Of a stretch of 53,617 nt of DNA, positions 430-46,396 are shown piece by piece; the first letter of the stretch is position 1, and each line of letters starts with the position of its first letter. The notes below the pieces were generated by a model. It saw only the letters and a list, made by a program, of their open reading frames with translations. It was not told where the DNA came from and searched no databases. The stretch comes from Candidatus Zixiibacteriota bacterium (GTDB lineage Bacteria > Zixibacteria > MSB-5A5 > GN15 > FEB-12). The stretch lies in contig JAWXAN010000027.1 of assembly GCA_034439475.1 (NCBI GenBank), positions 1 to 53,617 of the forward strand, given 5' to 3'. The translations under genes and the position numbers were made by a program.

Positions 430-3162
430 CTATTTCAGCAACAACATCTTTTTTGATTGAGAGATATCGCCAACGGTGAGAGTGTAAAGATAAATGCCGC
501 TTGCGACTCTTTGGCCGTTATTGTCGGTTCCATCCCATTCTATATAATGCGATCCTGCCGCGAGAGCTGAACCCACCAACTCGCGCACGTTCTGGCCAAT
601 TAGATTGTAAACATTAAGATGGACTTCACCTGAAGCTGGAATGGTGAAGGCAATAGTTGTGGCAGGATTGAACGGGTTAGGAAAATTTTGCATGAGTTCA
701 AACGAAACCGGCAAATTATCTCGATCATCGTCGGCACCGGTCGGCAAATAGAGAATCGTGTTACCATAAATATTAAATCCGTTCGAGCGCGGATCAGACC
801 AGACATACCATGCCCGTCCCCGCTCGGCATATACTGAAGGCGAATTCATGATCTCAGGGTTACCCGACGCTACTGGTTGATTAGCTCCTATTAGATTGAA
901 AGCCGGATCCAGTAATTGCGTGTAAACCTTCGCTTTTCCTTCTCGCCAGTCAACCCAGGCTGTGCTTACATAGTCATCGTTGTCGATTGCCAGCGCTGGG
1001 TCATCGGCCAACGAAGCCAAGTCATTGGTGATTTCAAAGGCCGGAATAGCAACTGTGCTGGCCGATGACACCACCGTCATATACAGTTTTTTTATCCCCG
1101 TGTCTGTTCCTGTCCATAAGAGAACCGTTTCGCCGGTTGTGGATATATCGGCGGCCAAACTTCCAATAGGGACATTGGCAATTGATGAGATGTAACTAAA
1201 TGTCCCGCCGGGGGTCTTGTCAGGATTGTACCAGCGTCCTTTGACGGTCGGAGTGGCGGCACCGTTATCGAGCCAGACGATATAAAAGCGGTTGAGATTA
1301 TCTTTGCCAATATGGAGCGCGGTGTTTTGCACGTCGGTACTTGAATTGGAAATCTGGAACTCCGCGCCATCAAGCTGGCCGGAAGTCGAGAGCCAACGCC
1401 CGTACACTTGAGGTGTGCCGTTTCGGTTGTCAATCCATGCCACCAAGGCTCTTCCGGTGTTGTTCATGACCGCTTTAAGGTCAAGCTTGCCGGAGGACTG
1501 CGCACTTTCGGAAATCATGAATTCGGCTTCACTAAAACTTCCCCAGATAGAACCGAACCGACCAAAAATCCGTTGTCCGCCGTTTCCGGCTACTGGCCTG
1601 CTGTCAATCCAAACTACGAGTGATTTATTGTTGCCGCTTGTGGCATTTGGGTTTGATTGCAGGCTTCCAGAAGTACTCTGATTAACTTTGACGTTACTTT
1701 GAAGCAGGGAGCCGGTATGGGAGAATGTTTGAAGATAAATATCGCCGGCATCGTTGCGCTCGTCGACAAAGAGCGCCAGATTCCACCAATTGGTCGTGGT
1801 CAGAATATATGGATCAGTGGACTGAGCGCCAATTGCGTCATCGTTGATGACCCGCTCTGGCGTGAAGAGTCTTGTACCGGCATTATCAAAAAGCATAAAA
1901 TGAATGTTCTCGTTACTGCCAACCTCGGTCCATACTATGCCATATCTGTTCAGTTGGCCAAGAGAAAGCGACGGGGCCCAGCGTTGTCCATCGGTGGCGA
2001 GGTTCGCCGTTCGTAATGTGGAGGGAACCAAACCGTTTGAAATGACTCGCACGGCAATACTGTTTTGAGCGGCAAACGAAGCCCATGTCGCAAGAAGGGT
2101 GCCCGTTGAAGAGATGCCAAATTCAAGGTCCCAATTGGTGGCGAGTGTGTCATTTACTGAAATCAAAGTATTGCCTCCGATGAGACCGCCGACCGGGTCG
2201 TATCGCTGGGCGAAGACTTCCTGGCCCTGACGACGATCTAACCAGCCGATGATATATTTATCCAGAGGCGAGAAGACAACCTCCGGGGCAAATTGCGGAT
2301 CGGCATCAAATGGAGGCGGGACGACAGAAAAATCAGCTCCGATGGCAGCGCCCGCGCCACTGAAAAGTCGGCAGAAAATGTCAGCTTGGCCATTCCTATA
2401 GTCCTCCCATGCGACCAAAAGTCCGCCGCTCGGTTGGGTAGAGACTGAAGGAGCCCAGCGTTGGGTGGATGGAGTAATTGAATTAACTGTCAAAGGGCCA
2501 ACAAGTGTTGATCCGTTGGCAGCAAGCAATTTCATTGCAACGGTATTCCCTCCGGTCGAGTAGTCCTCCCAGACAACGACAACACGGCCGTCAGGGAAGA
2601 GAGAGACATCATATAATCCGGCAAAGGCGTTTGACGAAGTATCATTTACGATAAACGGAGATCCAGTGAGTACAAAAGATGAGCTATATCGGGTGCAGAA
2701 TATAAGTCCGTTTGTTTGGTCACGGTAGCAGAGAATAATATTTCCTGACGTGTCGACTAAGAGCTTAGGATCCACATAATCCGAGCCGATTGAAGAGCCA
2801 GCCGTGAAAAAGTTAATTCCAGTCTTCACCCCCGAAGAACTCAATTTTTGAGCGAAAATCTTCCAACTTCCGGCGCGATGATCTTGCCAGACGGCAAGCC
2901 AGGAACTGTCTTTCAGTTGTTTTATCGAGGCATTGGTTTGCGCAAACGTGGCTGGAGCAACTGATTCGGAGAGGGCAATGTCTGCGGCGCTGGAGGCTGA
3001 CGGCAAAAATTCAACGGACTTCTGGTTGGAGATGTCTCTTCGTTCAAGTTTCAATCCGGAGAGTTGAGCCTCGTGAATAGCTGCGCGATCAAAGCTATTT
3101 TCCCCGAAGCTATCTGTGGTAAGAAAAGTGAAAAAAATGAGAATAAAAGAAATCTGTTTCAT
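430..3162 (-). CDS. Secreted beta-propeller-like protein with T9SS-type C-terminal sorting domain
   Basis: This 910-residue protein begins with a signal peptide (Lys then a run of Ile/Phe/Leu to about residue 20). Most of its length is about twelve degenerate repeats of 50-70 residues, each with a core such as VWxDxRxG followed by a short strand and a polar turn (for example AWEDYRNG, AWIDNRNG, AWVDWREG). This suggests a beta-propeller or similar all-beta fold. The last ~90 residues carry the QNFPNPFNP motif, a FlgD-Ig-like core, WDGTDNNG and SGIYLY, the hallmark of type IX secretion C-terminal sorting domains in the FCB group. It is therefore probably exported and anchored at or released from the cell surface. 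A PorV-like protein at 37108-38085 fits a T9SS-like route. No catalytic site is recognised, so the substrate or partner is unknown. It is transcribed divergently from the gene at 3579. Confidence 0.8.
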   Translation of the reverse strand: MKQISFILIFFTFLTTDSFGENSFDRAAIHEAQLSGLKLERRDISNQKSVEFLPSASSAADIALSESVAPATFAQTNASIKQLKDSSWLAVWQDHRAGSWKIFAQKLSSSGVKTGINFFTAGSSIGSDYVDPKLLVDTSGNIILCYRDQTNGLIFCTRYSSSFVLTGSPFIVNDTSSNAFAGLYDVSLFPDGRVVVVWEDYSTGGNTVAMKLLAANGSTLVGPLTVNSITPSTQRWAPSVSTQPSGGLLVAWEDYRNGQADIFCRLFSGAGAAIGADFSVVPPPFDADPQFAPEVVFSPLDKYIIGWLDRRQGQEVFAQRYDPVGGLIGGNTLISVNDTLATNWDLEFGISSTGTLLATWASFAAQNSIAVRVISNGLVPSTLRTANLATDGQRWAPSLSLGQLNRYGIVWTEVGSNENIHFMLFDNAGTRLFTPERVINDDAIGAQSTDPYILTTTNWWNLALFVDERNDAGDIYLQTFSHTGSLLQSNVKVNQSTSGSLQSNPNATSGNNKSLVVWIDSRPVAGNGGQRIFGRFGSIWGSFSEAEFMISESAQSSGKLDLKAVMNNTGRALVAWIDNRNGTPQVYGRWLSTSGQLDGAEFQISNSSTDVQNTALHIGKDNLNRFYIVWLDNGAATPTVKGRWYNPDKTPGGTFSYISSIANVPIGSLAADISTTGETVLLWTGTDTGIKKLYMTVVSSASTVAIPAFEITNDLASLADDPALAIDNDDYVSTAWVDWREGKAKVYTQLLDPAFNLIGANQPVASGNPEIMNSPSVYAERGRAWYVWSDPRSNGFNIYGNTILYLPTGADDDRDNLPVSFELMQNFPNPFNPATTIAFTIPASGEVHLNVYNLIGQNVRELVGSALAAGSHYIEWDGTDNNGQRVASGIYLYTLTVGDISQSKKMLLLK

Positions 3163-5549: not shown

Positions 5550-5625
5550 AGACACAAAATCGGCAGTGCTTCTCCGCACCTCAACACACATCTCAATTTT
5601 TGGAAATCTTAACGGAATATCGAAA

Positions 5626-6939
5626 TTATTGAACGGCTACCGTTCGTAATCTGGACGAATTAGACGCATAATCCTCAAGCCGATTTTCCATCGCAGCGAC
5701 CATTGTACGATCCGGGGGAGGAAGTTTGCAGGAATTTGTCAGCACAGTCATTTCCTGAAGAACCGCCCGTATTGCTTTGACACTCTCTATAATCGCATCA
5801 GAGGATGGGTGAAGTGTATTCTGGCTGTCAACCACGCTACCGGCGCCGATCTCTGACCTCAAAAATTCCGCCCGGCTCGAAATGAGAGTGATGGCCGTTG
5901 AAATCTGCTGAGCCATCTGATCCATAGCCTCACGAAGGGTGTCATTCGATACAAGCCGAATTTGATCCCGGTTGATCTGCTGCTGCATCTGGCGGTTTTC
6001 GCGAAGGACCGATTCCACTGTGACATACTGATCGAAAAGCAGACGGTTGGCTTCCATGAGAATTTCCTCGGTCGAGCCGACCTCGATTTCTAAATACCGC
6101 GCTTCTTCGATAGTCTTGCTGAACAAACTCTTTTCGATGACGCGGAGGTCTTCCTCGCTCAAGCCAAGATTATCTCTCAGAATCTCGCGCGCTTCCTGTT
6201 CTTCTCTCGCCGGGGGCCTGCTGTTGATATAGAGCGAGAAACGGGAAAGTTGATTGGCCAGCGAAAGGACTTGGGAGGGCACAAGTTCCGGATGGGTTGT
6301 GTGCGGTGTAAATACCGTGTGGTGCCGACCCACAGCCAGTGAAATCGACTCAGGCAAATGCCATTGGTCGAGCAAGAACTGACCGACAAGAGCGTGGTTT
6401 GTTCCCCAAATCTCCTCTTCGAGATCTACAAGATTTCCTTCGCGTCCCGATGCCATCCAGACACGCGGGAACTCAGCAGGAAAGGCTCCTTCGAGAATTA
6501 ACAGGCCGATATCATGCACAAGTCCCGCGACATAGAGTTCCTCAGGATTGCGGTACTTTATCTTCTCGGCGATCATACGACAGGCAATAGCCGTCTCAAG
6601 CGAGTGTCTCCAGAAGCGAAGCCGGTCAATGCCGGTGCTTACTTTCGAAGTCAGTGAATACACCGAACTCGAAAGAGCCAAGGCAGTAACCTGTTTCATT
6701 CCGATTGTCATCACGGCCTGGGTAAGTGAGGATACTTTGCTTGGTAGACTGTAGAAAGGAGAATTGACAATTCGCAAAACTTTGGTCGTCAACATTGGAT
6801 CGCGGGAGAGAATTGTCGCGAGTTGACCGGCGGAGGCATTGTCATCATGAGATAGACGCACTACCTCAGAGAGAGTCTGAGGAAGGGATTTCAGCTCCTT
6901 ACGTCCATCGAGGATTTTCTGTATAAGTACTTTATCCAT
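5626..6939 (-). CDS. HDOD-domain signalling protein
   Basis: The first ~210 residues form an HDOD domain, a non-catalytic relative of HD phosphohydrolases used in signalling. It opens with LPQTLSEVVRL, continues with LSRDPMLTTKVLRIVNSPFY and includes LVHDIGLLILEGAFP. The remainder is helical and ends in a segment (MDQMAQQISTAITLISSRAE) that resembles the dimerisation helix of a histidine kinase, but no ATPase domain follows. HDOD proteins act in c-di-GMP-linked regulation of motility, pili and stress, though the output here is unknown. I use the ATG at 6939 (437 residues). A longer reading would need a TTG at 7020 and adds 27 unremarkable residues. It is the last gene of the set that starts at 11212. 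Confidence 0.8.
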   Translation of the reverse strand: MDKVLIQKILDGRKELKSLPQTLSEVVRLSHDDNASAGQLATILSRDPMLTTKVLRIVNSPFYSLPSKVSSLTQAVMTIGMKQVTALALSSSVYSLTSKVSTGIDRLRFWRHSLETAIACRMIAEKIKYRNPEELYVAGLVHDIGLLILEGAFPAEFPRVWMASGREGNLVDLEEEIWGTNHALVGQFLLDQWHLPESISLAVGRHHTVFTPHTTHPELVPSQVLSLANQLSRFSLYINSRPPAREEQEAREILRDNLGLSEEDLRVIEKSLFSKTIEEARYLEIEVGSTEEILMEANRLLFDQYVTVESVLRENRQMQQQINRDQIRLVSNDTLREAMDQMAQQISTAITLISSRAEFLRSEIGAGSVVDSQNTLHPSSDAIIESVKAIRAVLQEMTVLTNSCKLPPPDRTMVAAMENRLEDYASNSSRLRTVAVQ

Positions 6940-7034
6940 AAAGCCACTGTTTAGGTTATTAATTGTATCGGATAAATTGCGGGATGGTTGAGCCAGAACG
7001 GACGAAAAGCGCCTAAACAAGAACTATTCAGAGA

Positions 7035-8306
7035 CTAAACAGAGGAGGAATTGGCCGTCGATTTTGCCACAAGTCGGATGATTCGCTTTTCCAGTTGGGC
7101 TTTGCACTGCATTGAATAGGTGGATATTGCCAGTGCCTGCCGGGCGTAAAAAAGAGCCGAATCGGGGTCTTTTTGGCGGTGCTCATAGAACTTGGCCAGT
7201 TCCAGATTCGCCCAATAACTTTGACGAGTCTGGCTGGCGGAAATTTTTTTCCATAAGAGACTTGCCCGCTCCGACTCCCCTTGCCGTTTCAGCACATTTG
7301 CAAAATAGAGCTGTTTCTCTCCGTCCCCATTGTCTGAGTCCAACTCGACTCGCTCCATAACTGTTACGGCCGTATCGATCTGTTTTCTGCGCCCATAAAT
7401 TCTCGAAAGAGAATAGAGGTCTTCGTCATAATCCAAATTGCCTCCTTTAGTCTCAAAAACATCTTTGAGCTGCATGAGCAAAAGGTACAGACTGACAATA
7501 TCCTGACGATTATGTTCGAGCACAGAGGGCATTACCGAGCAATCTTCTTCGGACAACCACTTGAAATAGACCGATGGCATCAAAAAGCCGGGGAAATCAT
7601 CGACCCTGAAGTAGCCAAACAGTTCACGTTCGATATTTGTCAATGAACAGTCTTTGAGCCTTCGTTTAAACAACCGCCTCGCGGGGTGCAAAAGATCCAG
7701 ATGAGTAGAGCATGGGATTTCCCGCGCTACGCGGTTGATTATCATCCTATCCTTGAGTAACGGAAGATCAAAGGCCGCGCCGTTATAGCTTACAAGAATT
7801 ACCTCTTCGTTCAGTTGCTCCAATAGTAACTCAAGCAATGCCTGCTCATCGCTGAAGTCCGGCAGAAAATATTGAGTGACCACAAATCCCAAATCGGTTA
7901 CGCGTCCAACGCCCACCAGAAAAGTGACCGCCCCGCTCCCTCCTAAACCGGTGGTCTCGGTATCGATAAACAGAAGGTCTTTTATTGCCAGTACTCTGTC
8001 CTGATGATCAGAAGTAAACGCCGAGTGCGGGATCGAGAGTCTTGTGTCTATCGAGATAAGTTCGGTCTGGCCGAAGGCGCTCCCGAACGGATAATGCTTT
8101 ACCGAGCGGACGATAGTCCCGCAGAAAGTAGTTAAAACCTCGCCGCCGATTGAATCGGCAAGGGCCTGATATCGGTCAGGCAGTTTTGATGAATAATCCG
8201 GCGCAGCCAGAGGGACAATATTGAAATCAGAGCTGGAAGGCGAAGGGGGAACACCGATCAGATGTTTGAATCGTTTCAGTTGAAAGTCGAGATTGTCATC
8301 GGTCAT
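7035..8306 (-). CDS. YprB-like DEDD 3'-5' exonuclease domain protein with TPR tail
   Basis: Residues ~110-290 match the RNase H-like DEDD exonuclease fold of the YprB/RNase_H_2 group. Exo I is FIDTETTGLGGSG (Asp and Glu metal ligands), Exo II is VSYNGAAFDLPLLKDR, and Exo III is HNRQDIVSLYLLL with the last Asp. The final ~120 residues are helical pairs resembling TPRs (YFANVLKRQGESERASLLW and SYWANLELAKFYEHRQKDP). The role is probably processing of DNA or RNA ends; the substrate is not deducible. The ATG at 8306 (423 residues) is chosen over an upstream in-frame start that would overlap the previous gene much further; at 8306 the overlap with the HEAT-repeat gene is 11 bases, consistent with translational coupling. 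Confidence 0.8.
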   Translation of the reverse strand: MTDDNLDFQLKRFKHLIGVPPSPSSSDFNIVPLAAPDYSSKLPDRYQALADSIGGEVLTTFCGTIVRSVKHYPFGSAFGQTELISIDTRLSIPHSAFTSDHQDRVLAIKDLLFIDTETTGLGGSGAVTFLVGVGRVTDLGFVVTQYFLPDFSDEQALLELLLEQLNEEVILVSYNGAAFDLPLLKDRMIINRVAREIPCSTHLDLLHPARRLFKRRLKDCSLTNIERELFGYFRVDDFPGFLMPSVYFKWLSEEDCSVMPSVLEHNRQDIVSLYLLLMQLKDVFETKGGNLDYDEDLYSLSRIYGRRKQIDTAVTVMERVELDSDNGDGEKQLYFANVLKRQGESERASLLWKKISASQTRQSYWANLELAKFYEHRQKDPDSALFYARQALAISTYSMQCKAQLEKRIIRLVAKSTANSSSV

Positions 8307-39848: not shown

Positions 39849-39968
39849 GTCCAAATTAAGTCATTCCAAAAATCTACTGACAGTAGCTGTCAGGGCTATC
39901 CCTGATACTTGTTGCGCAGACAGGATGATGGTAAATCAGACCTAAAAGCGTATTCAGGATGGAGGAAT

Positions 39969-41507
39969 ATGTTAGCAAAGGTAGTATCGTCGGCGACCCT
40001 CGGTGTGGACGCTTACACAGTGGAAGTTGAGGCTGACATTCAGCAACAGCTTCCGGCATTTGTCACAGTCGGGCTTCCCGATGGCGCGGTACGTGAGTCA
40101 AAAGAGCGCGTCACTGCCGCAATCAAAAACTCAGATTTTGTTTTTCCGGCTAAAAAAGTAACTATTAATCTCGCGCCGGCAGATATTAAAAAGGAAGGTT
40201 CGGCATTCGATCTGCCAATCGCGGTCGGTATTTTGGCGGCAACAGGACAAATCCTCCGTGAGCGATGCGATGACTATGTCCTGCTCGGGGAACTCTCTCT
40301 CGATGGCGCGGTCCGGCCAGTCCCGGGTGTTCTGCCTATGGCCATGAATATTCAAAGCGGCAATGGCATAAAAGGGATAATTGTGCCGTATGAGAATGCC
40401 CGCGAGGCCGCCATGGCAGACACAATTCCTGTCTATCCGGTCAGGTCTCTCAAAGAGACTGTGCAGTTTCTGGAAGATGAATCCACTATAGCGCGCTATC
40501 TCATAAATATTGATACGGCCTTCGAAGAAGCGCGAAAGTATGCAGTCGATTTTTCCGATGTCAAAGGCCAGGAGTCAGCGAAAAGAGCGTTGGAGGTTGC
40601 CGCCGCCGGAGGGCACAATATTATTATGATCGGCCCACCCGGCTCTGGTAAAACAATGCTTGCGCGCCGCATGTCAACTATTTTGCCGGATATGACAATC
40701 CCTGAAGCTCTGGAAACGACCAAAATACATTCTGTCGCTGGACGCCTTGCCGAAGATGCCGCTATTGTCGCTACCCGGCCGTTTCGTTCACCTCATCACA
40801 CAATTTCTTATGCAGGGCTTGTGGGTGGAGGGGCAATTCCAAAACCGGGCGAGGTCTCGCTTGCGCATCATGGCGTTCTCTTTCTCGATGAACTTCCGGA
40901 ATTCAAAAAGGATATCCTTGAAATGCTTCGCCAGCCGATGGAAGACAAACAGGTGACAATTTCCCGGGCATCGACGACCATCACCTATCCGGCGGGATTC
41001 ATGCTCATCTCAGCTATGAATCCATGTCCGTGCGGCTATCATGGGGATCCAAATCATTCCTGCAACTGCAGTTCGGGGGAAATTCAGCGCTATATGTCGA
41101 AAATTTCCGGACCGCTGATGGATAGAATCGACATTCATATCACTGTCCCATCGGTCAAATTCAAAGACCTTTCATCGAATGAAGCCGGTGTAGATTCATT
41201 GAGCATCCGCTCGAGAGTCAACAAAGCGCGTCAGAGGCAATTGGCGCGATTCAAAACTGAAAAGCACATTTACTGCAACGCCCATATGGAAGCGCGTGAT
41301 ATCCGGAGAGTCTGCACGATAGACGAGAAATCACAGGCGTTGCTTGGGCTGGCAATTAAAAAGCAGGGACTATCGGCGCGGGCGTATGACAGAATCCTCA
41401 AAGTCGCACGAACGATCGCAGACCTTGCCGATTCAGACGCCATCGAGATGGGTCATCTGGCCGAGGCGATTCACTACCGGACGCTTGATAGGCATCTGTG
41501 GTTATGA
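39969..41507 (+). CDS. comM: YifB/ComM family magnesium-chelatase-like AAA+ ATPase
   Basis: The protein has 512 residues from an ATG preceded by GGAGG. It begins with the ChlI-like N-terminal domain (LGVDAYTVEVEADIQQQLP, GLPDGAVRESKERV), then the AAA+ module: Walker A GPPGSGKTMLARR and Walker B GVLFLDELPEF. A Cys cluster (CPCGYHGDP, CNC) and the C-terminal Mg-chelatase-type domain follow. In Vibrio and Haemophilus ComM is a hexameric helicase for branch migration during natural transformation, while a general role is unclear for other bacteria. It is monocistronic, judging by the terminator upstream and repeat-filled gap downstream. Confidence 0.93.
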   Translation: MLAKVVSSATLGVDAYTVEVEADIQQQLPAFVTVGLPDGAVRESKERVTAAIKNSDFVFPAKKVTINLAPADIKKEGSAFDLPIAVGILAATGQILRERCDDYVLLGELSLDGAVRPVPGVLPMAMNIQSGNGIKGIIVPYENAREAAMADTIPVYPVRSLKETVQFLEDESTIARYLINIDTAFEEARKYAVDFSDVKGQESAKRALEVAAAGGHNIIMIGPPGSGKTMLARRMSTILPDMTIPEALETTKIHSVAGRLAEDAAIVATRPFRSPHHTISYAGLVGGGAIPKPGEVSLAHHGVLFLDELPEFKKDILEMLRQPMEDKQVTISRASTTITYPAGFMLISAMNPCPCGYHGDPNHSCNCSSGEIQRYMSKISGPLMDRIDIHITVPSVKFKDLSSNEAGVDSLSIRSRVNKARQRQLARFKTEKHIYCNAHMEARDIRRVCTIDEKSQALLGLAIKKQGLSARAYDRILKVARTIADLADSDAIEMGHLAEAIHYRTLDRHLWL

Positions 41508-42146: not shown

Positions 42147-44516
42147 ATGAAGCGATTTTTAATAGTCTGCGCTGTTTTCTGTTTTATTCTTTTTTCGCAT
42201 GATGTCGCTCTGAGTCAACAATGCTGTGTCGGAAGTACTGGTAACATCGATGGTTCTCCCGGTGATTCGACCGATGTCTCTGACTTGACATCTCTCATCG
42301 ATTTTCTTTTTATCAGTTATGCCGAGCCGGCTTGTCTCGCCGAGGCAAATGTCGATGGGAGCATCGATGGGGTTATCGATGTGTCCGATTTATCGGCATT
42401 GATTGATTTTCTTTTCATTAGCTACGCGCCGCTTATTCCTTGTGAGGATGAGACTCTGATGGACCCGGCTGTACGTATGGCAGCTATTGACAGTGTTGAC
42501 AGTTTCTCTAGCACCCTTAACTGGTCAAATCTTGATGCTGCCAACAATCAATTAGCAGATTATATCAATACCCTTCCTGAATTTGATACGGCGGGGGTTA
42601 TAGGTGAGACTGGAAACGTGTGGGCACTTTTTGCCGACAGTGTGATGCTCATGTTTGGCAAAAATCGGCCACCATCGGATTCTGCTTCCGCTGTAGGCCC
42701 GACAGTTTATGAATCCATTGATGAATTGAATCAAATCGTGATACCGGATAATTCTAAGCCAGTTGGGAACGTTACCCCGCAGCCGTCTGCCGCAGCAAGC
42801 GAGGAATTACCGGAATCGGCACAAGTTCGTATGATTCAGACTTTGGGGGCTTATTTCACGCCTGCTGGCCCAACTATACGGTCGTGGCTGACATTGAATG
42901 GTTATTTCATGGCGGCGTCAACATCGGGTACGGTCAACGCCCTCAAGTCCGTGAGCGGAGATGGTATTCTCTATTTTGACGGCCATGGCGGGGCGGGTTA
43001 TTACGACCCGACCCTTACCGTTGGAGAGTTTGCTTTGTGGACAATGACAGAAGTGACAGTTGCAAATATTCCTTCGTATACCGCAGATATGAAGGCTAAG
43101 CGTTTGGTTCTCATGATCGAAGTTGTCGGTGTGACGGTTGCTGGAGCGGAAATAAGAGAACTCCATTACGGCATTACATCTAAATTCATAAGCTACTATT
43201 GGGGAAACTTTGCTCCAAACGCGATGGTCTTTATTGACGCCTGCGGAGCAGGCGGCTCCTTGGCGGCAGGGTTACGAAACGCCATGTTGAACAAGAATGC
43301 GTCGGTCTATTTCGGCTGGTCTCACATAGTAGGTAGCGATGCCGCCGCATTGGTTGCGAAGTTCATGTTTGATCGCCTGCTTGGGGCAAATGAAGCGGCT
43401 CCAAAAGAAACTCCGGACCAACGCCCCTTTCCGTATCCCGACATCTACGGAGATTTGGCAAATAGGGGGTTACATATTCATCCAAGCCTTAGCGCTGGCG
43501 GTTTGACAACGTTCAAATCATTTCATGGATCTGGGAATTTCGGCCTGCTCGCGCCAAGTATTTCATTTATGAGTATGGAGGAAGCGGTTGATGGTTTGAC
43601 TATCAATGGCATTTTCGGGACTGACCCGGGCGCGGCCGACAGGCGTGTGCAAGCAGACGGGGTCGATCTCAATGTGGTAAGCTGGACACCGACCGAAATA
43701 AAGTGTGACATCGGAAGAGACGGCACCGGCTCAGCTGGCCCGGTGGCTGTGGAAGTGCGTGGGTCATTCGGTGACCTAACGCCTCTGACATATCGAAAAA
43801 GCAACGTAGTCAATCTGACTTCCTGGCGGATTCCATTCCATTACGAGCACCAGGAGGGTGGGGCGAAAGTAGTGGTAGAAATGAATGTTCATATTCGCGC
43901 CGATATACACGCACACCGCGAGGTAATACACGAGCCGCCGGTCAACCTTGTTGGTGTCCCCTTCTACCATGCCCTGGACTCCTACGGAAGTTTTACGGCC
44001 GGCGGGAGCGGAACTGGCTGTACTGGCGGATGCTGTTGGACGAGCACCTGGTCGGGTGGCGGAGAAATACCCATAATCGAAAATGCAGTCGACGCCATTT
44101 CGTTTGGCGCACTTGGAGGTATAGATCCACTGCATCACACTTTCACCATGTCCATGGGAGCCGGAATAGATGTCGGTATAAACACAAATGATTGCGGTTC
44201 GTGTTCTAATGACTGTTACAATTCCACTTTGAGTTGGAGAACGGAGATAGCCATAAATGAAGGTTTTGACCCTGAGCCGTACTTTACTATGTATTTGAAC
44301 AGCAATTATGATCTGATTCCGGGCGAACGCGTTCCGTCTGGAATTATCCCGGTGACGAATTACATATTTTATGACGATGGCGTAGCGACCATCAAGTTAA
44401 CCTGGCCGGCTGTTGTCGCTGAATTTCCACCAGACCCTGACGGGGCGGTTCGGTCGCCTGAGATGTTGAACGCGCCCGTGAACATTACCCCCGAGCCTCC
44501 GACAGGCGCGAAGTAA
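42147..44516 (+). CDS. Secreted protein with dockerin repeats and caspase-like (clan CD) domain
   Basis: The ATG at 42147 gives a clean signal peptide (MKRFLIVCAVFCFILF) and 789 residues. Residues ~30-95 hold two calcium-type repeats (DVSDLTSLIDFLF and NVDGSIDGVIDVSDLSALID), as in dockerins. Residues ~250-430 hold a candidate clan CD peptidase: ILYFDGHGG with His280 and, 86 residues on, MVFIDACGAGG with Cys366, the spacing and strand context of caspase/gingipain/CHAT enzymes. A segment near 515-575 (INGIFGTDPG, VVSWTPTEIKCDI, GPVAVEVRG) is IPT/TIG-like, and the C-terminus is a Cys-rich beta region. It would be exported; no cleavage target is visible. Upstream GGAG/TAGG serves as ribosome site. 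Confidence 0.75.
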   Translation: MKRFLIVCAVFCFILFSHDVALSQQCCVGSTGNIDGSPGDSTDVSDLTSLIDFLFISYAEPACLAEANVDGSIDGVIDVSDLSALIDFLFISYAPLIPCEDETLMDPAVRMAAIDSVDSFSSTLNWSNLDAANNQLADYINTLPEFDTAGVIGETGNVWALFADSVMLMFGKNRPPSDSASAVGPTVYESIDELNQIVIPDNSKPVGNVTPQPSAAASEELPESAQVRMIQTLGAYFTPAGPTIRSWLTLNGYFMAASTSGTVNALKSVSGDGILYFDGHGGAGYYDPTLTVGEFALWTMTEVTVANIPSYTADMKAKRLVLMIEVVGVTVAGAEIRELHYGITSKFISYYWGNFAPNAMVFIDACGAGGSLAAGLRNAMLNKNASVYFGWSHIVGSDAAALVAKFMFDRLLGANEAAPKETPDQRPFPYPDIYGDLANRGLHIHPSLSAGGLTTFKSFHGSGNFGLLAPSISFMSMEEAVDGLTINGIFGTDPGAADRRVQADGVDLNVVSWTPTEIKCDIGRDGTGSAGPVAVEVRGSFGDLTPLTYRKSNVVNLTSWRIPFHYEHQEGGAKVVVEMNVHIRADIHAHREVIHEPPVNLVGVPFYHALDSYGSFTAGGSGTGCTGGCCWTSTWSGGGEIPIIENAVDAISFGALGGIDPLHHTFTMSMGAGIDVGINTNDCGSCSNDCYNSTLSWRTEIAINEGFDPEPYFTMYLNSNYDLIPGERVPSGIIPVTNYIFYDDGVATIKLTWPAVVAEFPPDPDGAVRSPEMLNAPVNITPEPPTGAK

Positions 44517-44644: not shown

Positions 44645-46396
44645 ATGTCCAAGATTACACAGCGCACACGTACCGAAAAGCTTCTGCTCGAAGCCGCTCG
44701 GATTTTCAACTCGACATTAGAATACGAAGACCTCCTCGAATCGGTCCTCAAACTGGTCATGACTGCCGCTGGTTCCGAAGCCGCGCTTGTGTTCAGAGTC
44801 GACCATCATCGAAGCGACATGAAAATCCGCTTTATGCTCTGCGCCGAATGCGACATGAAAGTCATCAAGAGAGAGTTGAATGAAGAAGTTACACATTGGG
44901 CATCGCGCTTCCGGGAGCCGTTCATCGTCAATAACGCCTCAGACAACGGTTTTGTAGACCCTGAATTGAGCGCATTGGTAGGCATAAAAATCCGAACCGT
45001 GCTCACGGTGCCGCTTATCGGCAAAGGGCATATGATCGGAGTCATCCAGGCTCTCAACAAAGCCGATGGCGAGTTCACCGATGCCGACCAAGATATGCTC
45101 ACTGGTCTCAACAACCAAATTGCGGTGGCAATCGACAACGCCCATCTCTATCGCGAAGTTAAACGCGAAGCGCTTGAGAAAAATCTTCTGCTCGAAGTCG
45201 GGATGAAGCTTTCGAGTTCGCTCAATCTCGATGAGGTCCTCAGGGCAATTATGTCATCGCTCAAACAAGTAATATCCTACGATGTCGGCGGCGTCTTCCT
45301 GATCGACCCGGAGGAGATGAAAGTCAAATCCATATTTGTGGTAGGCTATGATCCGAGCTATGATGAAAAACTCCAGCTCAAAATCGGTCAAGGCCTTATC
45401 GGTTCGGTGGCCCACACGGGTGAGCCGGTCAATGTGCCGGATGTTTCCAAAGACAGCCGATATGTGGATGCCAACCCGAAAACCAAAAGCGAACTGGTTG
45501 TTCCGATAAAGCTCGGCGATAAAATCCTGGGCGTCATAAATCTTGAATCCGATCAGCTCAGAGCATACGACCGGCGCACGATCTCGCTTGTTTCGGCCTT
45601 TGCCTCGCAGGCGGCGATATCGCTCGAACGCGCGAGACTTCATCAGAGCTTGCTCGACGCCAAAAAACTCGACGAACAGTTAAACATCGCCAGAGAAATT
45701 CAGCGTTCGTTTTTGCCGGAGCGGGATCCCGCCGTGGCCGGATATGATGTTTGTGGGACAAACATTTCATCGGGGCAGGTTGGCGGTGATTATTACGATT
45801 TCATACGAATAGTTGACGGCCATACCGGTATTGCCATAGGCGATGTTTCCGGCAAAGGAATGCCGGCGGCTCTGATTATGGCATCTTTTCGTGCCTCGCT
45901 TATTGCAGAAATCCGCAACAATTATTCCATCAGAACTATCTGTCAGAAAGTAAACTCCCTCCTGTTCGAATCCATGGAATCGGGGAATTATGTAACGGCC
46001 GTGTATGGTGTGCTCGATGCCCGTCATCACATACTAACATTCTCAAACTGCGGCCACAATCTTCCGGTCTTATTGCGCAAAAACGGACAGGTCGAATATT
46101 TAGCTGAAGGCGGCCCGGTGCTCGGAGTCACCAGCGATGCGACATACGAAGAGCGTGCGATGGTTCTCAGCCCCGGCGACACGGTCGTTCTCTATACGGA
46201 CGGTGTGACAGAAGTTTTCGACAAAAATGGAGTGGAATTCGGTCTCGACAGGCTCATCGAGGTTATAAAGAAAAATAAGGCGAAGTCAGCCAAAGAGATT
46301 CAGGCCGCGATTTATGCTGTCGTGACAAAATTTGCGAGTGAAGACCATATTTACGATGATCTCACGATGATAGTCATCAAGCGGCTGCCCGTTTAA
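44645..46396 (+). CDS. GAF-GAF-SpoIIE serine phosphatase (RsbU-like)
   Basis: A 583-residue cytoplasmic protein. GAF domain 1 (~15-165) ends with NQIAVAIDNAHLY, GAF domain 2 (~185-335) with AAISLERARLH, both sensory. The C-terminal ~240 residues are a PP2C-type SpoIIE phosphatase: REIQRSFLPERDP, VGGDYYDF with the metal Asp, GDVSGKGMPAAL, YTDGVTE and DDLTMIVIKR. Such proteins dephosphorylate an anti-sigma-factor antagonist, releasing a sigma factor in stress. No antagonist or anti-sigma kinase is nearby, so the target is elsewhere. It stands alone. Confidence 0.93.
   Translation: MSKITQRTRTEKLLLEAARIFNSTLEYEDLLESVLKLVMTAAGSEAALVFRVDHHRSDMKIRFMLCAECDMKVIKRELNEEVTHWASRFREPFIVNNASDNGFVDPELSALVGIKIRTVLTVPLIGKGHMIGVIQALNKADGEFTDADQDMLTGLNNQIAVAIDNAHLYREVKREALEKNLLLEVGMKLSSSLNLDEVLRAIMSSLKQVISYDVGGVFLIDPEEMKVKSIFVVGYDPSYDEKLQLKIGQGLIGSVAHTGEPVNVPDVSKDSRYVDANPKTKSELVVPIKLGDKILGVINLESDQLRAYDRRTISLVSAFASQAAISLERARLHQSLLDAKKLDEQLNIAREIQRSFLPERDPAVAGYDVCGTNISSGQVGGDYYDFIRIVDGHTGIAIGDVSGKGMPAALIMASFRASLIAEIRNNYSIRTICQKVNSLLFESMESGNYVTAVYGVLDARHHILTFSNCGHNLPVLLRKNGQVEYLAEGGPVLGVTSDATYEERAMVLSPGDTVVLYTDGVTEVFDKNGVEFGLDRLIEVIKKNKAKSAKEIQAAIYAVVTKFASEDHIYDDLTMIVIKRLPV

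Follow-up and report, generated by a model that had tools for sequence, protein, structure and literature searches.

The window analysed here is a stretch of 53,617 nucleotides from a Candidatus Zixiibacteriota bacterium (contig JAWXAN010000027.1). The gene of interest lies on its forward strand, opening with the ATG at 42147 and closing with the stop codon at 44514–44516, and its open reading frame translates into a product of 789 residues (Table 1). The initial annotation had described in this product a signal peptide, two DVSDL repeats and a candidate catalytic pair – His280 in DGHGG and Cys366 in DACGAGG – all of which lie exactly where it had placed them. Judged by eye, the N-terminus (MKRFLIVCAVFCFILFSHDVALS followed by QQCC) is compatible with a Sec signal peptide; it has no lipobox, in contrast to the related protein L011 and the Armatimonadota relative L030. 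Because a paralogue in the same genome and the relative L019 are flanked by different genes, no operon partner is suggested by the neighbourhood.

Table 1. Features of the putative exported caspase-like protein and its flanking genes, in window coordinates.
Feature	Position	Strand	Basis or remark
ComM/Mg-chelatase-like gene, upstream	39909–41507		Named from translation only
Gene of exported caspase-like protein	42147–44516	+	789 residues plus stop; ORF and translation; full-length paralogue and relatives
Putative Sec signal peptide, residues 1–23, cleavage between ALS and Q	42147–42215	+	By-eye reading
Dockerin-like module, two repeats (DVSDL...DVSDL), residues 24–101	42216–42449	+	About 50 genome copies; 11-module profile
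Conserved α/β segment ahead of catalytic domain, residues 104–175	42456–42671	+	Conservation in relatives
Clan CD (CHAT-like) domain, residues 221–470	42807–43556	+	35-member family; hhalign to CHAT 95.1%, score 61.9
Codon of His280 (CAT), putative catalytic His, DGHGG	42984–42986	+	Invariant in 35/35
Codon of Cys366 (TGC), putative catalytic Cys, IDACGAGG	43242–43244	+	Kept in 31/35
IPT/TIG-like Ig domain, residues 478–556	43578–43814	+	Family profile matches
C-terminal region with conserved H582-x-R-x-D-x-H588-xx-R-xxx-H595, residues 557–789	43815–44513	+	Conservation among close relatives
GAF/SpoIIE-like phosphatase gene, downstream	44645–46396		Named from translation only

Searched as a single sequence against Pfam-A, NCBIfam and the PDB, the protein gives no match up to E = 10, and direct sequence searches with the catalytic domain against Pfam, NCBIfam, PHROGs, PADLOC and the PDB returned nothing convincing. 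The α/β segment ahead of that domain – possibly a prodomain, and the only part of the AlphaFold2 model with a pLDDT of about 70–80 – is joined to the His/Cys domain by a variable linker. The IPT/TIG-like region is recognised through the family profile, which aligns with part of the amylase 1qho (E 1.8e-9) as well as with PDB chains named IPT/TIG; the Pfam TIG model itself matches 6 of 19 family members, the window protein not being one of them. Ig-like domains adjoin the core in several members of the family. The C-terminal region is probably β-rich. The HxRxDxHxxRxxxH motif within it (residues 582–595; 43890–43931) is invariant in the five aligned sequences that cover it; L030 and L019 have lost part of it. 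The motif may bind a metal or have a structural role.

The protein is not alone. One full paralogue, 43% identical over residues 4–645, is encoded in its own genome (2.66 Mb in 82 contigs), and a first search gave matches in 5 of 61 genomes, the own genome included. At an earlier step of profile extension, members were present in 10 of 132 genomes of the same phylum, a further step added one Armatimonadota locus (in Candidatus Zipacnadia), and the final profile retrieved members from 17 of the 132 own-phylum genomes and from 46 of 291 Armatimonadota genomes (E ≤ 0.1). No family member was found in the viral contigs and plasmids searched. The resulting alignment contains 39 distinct rows, 35 of which cover the catalytic domain and serve for all dyad counts given here; identity across the core domain ranges from 12 to 51%.

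The initial annotation had named conservation in homologues as the check on its His/Cys pair, and the outcome speaks for the pair. His280 is the sole fully invariant column across the two phyla, and Cys366, likewise kept in members from both, ranks within the top four conserved columns, which places the pair beyond chance. The glycine beside the histidine (G281) is present in 31 of the 35 members and forms part of a GG in the window protein. The four members with a replaced cysteine, by Gly in L041, L043 and L044 and by Arg in L045, all belong to one clade, as if the residue had been lost a single time. From their sequences these four are likely to be pseudoenzymes, and the loss suggests that the family scaffold can serve without catalysis.

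Which of the known clan CD families comes closest was addressed by profile–profile comparison, with alignments of CHAT, C25 and C14 built from matches in related genomes. Against CHAT (PF12770), hhalign aligns 178 columns of the family profile (95.1%, score 61.9), matching the family histidine to the HG motif of CHAT and the family cysteine to its AC motif, so that the clan CD-type site originally proposed is recovered with the very same two residues. The score lies well beyond the controls, which reached at most 20.5 in 100 column permutations and 37.0 in 100 block permutations, 18.0 with the reversed profile and 10.5 with an alpha/beta-hydrolase profile as decoy; when the family set is narrowed to 13 near relatives, the CHAT match persists but is weaker (72%). 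The corresponding values are 15.4% for C25 and 20.4% for C14, the latter rising to 64.5% with full-length C14 ORFs, although this ranking is an unfair contest, since the C25 and C14 alignments are less diverse (Neff about 2.7 versus 4.7).

The resemblance to CHAT peptidases thus comprises the histidine in a THG context, the cysteine in a strand ending in xxAC, and the order of the elements that follow – a helix, a GAxxYxGW strand and another helix, running parallel to CHAT in the alignment. Unlike CHAT proper, all family members tested fall below the curated Pfam cut-off of 24 bits (the best reaches 11.2 bits, and the window protein gives no match), and the protein appears to be exported together with dockerin-like and IPT domains. 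With caspase- and metacaspase-like C14 peptidases (PF00656) it shares an alignable segment up to SGHG (about 64%, score 40.8), but this match stops after the histidine, and the window protein has no match to the C14 model. Gingipain-like C25 peptidases (PF01364), which include the T9SS sortase PorU, are likewise clan CD enzymes that these bacteria export, yet the window protein shows only the weak profile match to them given above, no PF01364 match up to E = 10 and no T9SS tail. Assignment to C14, C25 or CHAT proper was therefore rejected on model scores, and the protein is most likely a CHAT-like clan CD peptidase that none of the three family models captures.

Clan CD peptidases are characterised by a His-before-Cys order and a glycine beside the catalytic histidine, the dyad sitting at the C-terminal ends of the adjacent parallel strands β3 and β4 of a six-stranded sheet (PMC4357240). 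In the window protein, the conserved dyad follows the His–Cys order and a glycine adjoins the histidine; the two residues are 86 positions apart, a long spacing that exceeds those of PmC11 (His133/Cys179) and MARTX-CPD (His91/Cys140) by about 40 residues (PMC4357240). AlphaFold2, with input limited to the window protein and L030, gave a mean pLDDT of 34.6 for two sequences and 30.8 for one, and as both models are of very low confidence, most likely owing to shallow alignments, we infer the fold from the profiles only.

On this evidence, the window protein is most likely an exported clan CD cysteine endopeptidase of the caspase/CHAT type. Exported by Sec, it would use His280, behind a presumed strand ending in HG, to activate Cys366, located where the following core strand ends, and would thereby cut peptide bonds in extracytoplasmic proteins. 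Positioning of the substrate or stabilisation of the enzyme would fall to the IPT/TIG and C-terminal domains. A fold and dyad of clan CD could also belong to a surface protein that is no general protease and whose domain processes the protein itself or binds a ligand, with the dyad making one cut only or being scarcely used. The clade in which Gly or Arg has taken the place of the cysteine while the rest of the domain is kept would fit such a role, as would the Ig-like domains beside the core of several members; retention of the cysteine in 31 of the 35 members, from both phyla, is, however, more than purely structural use would require, and the window protein has both residues, so that we regard this reading as rather unlikely. 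Far less probable still is that the HG and DAC motifs have arisen by coincidence in another α/β fold outside clan CD. In favour of coincidence, no clan CD model matches the sequence directly and the AlphaFold2 models are poor, but the CHAT match pairs both residues and scores much higher than the permuted and decoy profiles, and the two residues are among the most conserved columns of the family.

How such an enzyme might be held outside the cell depends on the N-terminal repeats. Both are segments of the calcium-loop/helix type with a conserved D-x-x-D, and similar modules are found in about 50 places of the genome. A profile built from 11 of these modules matches in the PDB, at E ≤ 1, only chains bearing type I dockerins, namely those of C. 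thermocellum (best 4fl4, E 0.005); given this confinement and the number of copies, the DVSDL repeats are no chance occurrence. The Pfam Dockerin_1 model (PF00404) gives sub-threshold matches in some module copies and none in the window protein. In six other proteins that we read (L003–L008), the module is located at the very C-terminus; in the window protein, its paralogue, L010, L013, L015 and L019, it follows the signal peptide close to the N-terminus. L011, another relative, is a lipoprotein that lacks the module.

The suggestion that the bacterium is T9SS-capable also stood up, given that its genome encodes PorU-type PF01364 proteins – PF01364 is present in all 61 relatives searched – and has 25 Por_Secre_tail matches over the cut-off among the 33 listed. 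None of these lies in the window gene, and the idea that the protein has its own tail for T9SS export was accordingly rejected. Elsewhere in the window, a Por_Secre_tail match on the reverse strand (445–684, in the ORF 430–3162) marks a probable T9SS cargo protein. Cohesin-like matches (PF00963) in the genome are few and weak: nine in total, three over the cut-off. They include matches on C13, C66, C21, C11 and C54 (L132–L139) in ORFs that also have a T9SS tail, and the Pfam cohesin model also matches in an E. coli control genome. Together with the approximately 50 dockerin-like copies, the proteins combining cohesin-like matches with T9SS tails hint at a surface cohesin–dockerin system, to which docking of the window protein is plausible.

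The N-terminal repeats, which probably bind calcium, would thus tether the enzyme to the cell surface or within a complex, and the cohesin-like domains of T9SS-anchored proteins in the same cell may be where it docks. A competing account, concerning the docking alone and compatible with the peptidase reading, is that this lineage uses the repeats as a general-purpose tag for export or anchoring, stabilised by calcium and binding no cohesin, and that the enzyme acts by itself. The presence of the module in so many places and at either end of proteins, the scarcity of cohesin-like matches and the E. coli control make this nearly an even bet, whereas the occurrence of cohesin-like matches in T9SS-tailed proteins, an arrangement also proposed for Ca. 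Stygibacter (PMC8542988), argues against it. Our fuller picture – a clan CD peptidase family without a model in the searched libraries, occurring in two or more phyla and exported either as lipoproteins or in secreted form, with one lineage recruited by its N-terminal dockerin into a T9SS-displayed cohesin complex and another turned pseudoenzyme – is offered tentatively, at somewhat less than even odds. For the window protein, the analysis shows the anatomy of the gene, its family, the conserved dyad, the profile similarity to CHAT, the many copies of the dockerin-like module and the cohesin-like and T9SS proteins of the genome, whereas the fold, catalysis, substrate, calcium binding and docking partner are inferred.

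The initial annotation had called the combination of dockerin repeats and an exported caspase-like enzyme in a T9SS-capable bacterium unusual, which proved too strong. In Ca. Stygibacter (Cloacimonadota), a gingipain-like C25 peptidase with signal peptide and dockerin has been published alongside a T9SS-anchored cohesin scaffoldin (PMC8542988), so that a dockerin joined to a clan CD peptidase in a T9SS bacterium is not unprecedented. The two cases are alike in uniting an exported clan CD-type protein and a dockerin in such a bacterium; they differ in that the Ca. Stygibacter enzyme belongs to family C25, has a C-terminal dockerin and comes from the Cloacimonadota, whereas the window protein belongs to the family described here and has an N-terminal module. 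RflaF_05439 of Ruminococcus flavefaciens (PMC3573020) is also a cellulosome-related protein with a cysteine-peptidase-like module, but its fold is papain-like rather than clan CD. No open-access paper among those searched brings dockerin together with either Zixibacteria or clostripain, and the main text of a survey of prokaryotic caspase homologues mentions neither CHAT nor dockerin (PMC3501461). What is new is therefore the family, which the searched libraries do not cover, and the position of the module at the N-terminus, the combination itself being already known in kind. A clan CD-type family missed by Pfam-A and NCBIfam, found in nearly a sixth of the Armatimonadota genomes searched and scattered through those of its own phylum, would widen the range of bacterial caspase relatives, which are here carried on exported proteins. 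Through the dockerin fusion, an extracellular protease is linked, in a way open to testing, to a cohesin complex that may be displayed on the surface, in a lineage for which metagenomes are the main source of knowledge.

A dockerin-like stretch is also present at the N-terminus of the Armatimonadota member L030, in this case behind a lipobox. At that locus, two neighbouring lipoprotein genes (L030:2918–5413 and 5605–8010) are near-identical in their lipobox and dockerin-like N-terminus and diverge afterwards.
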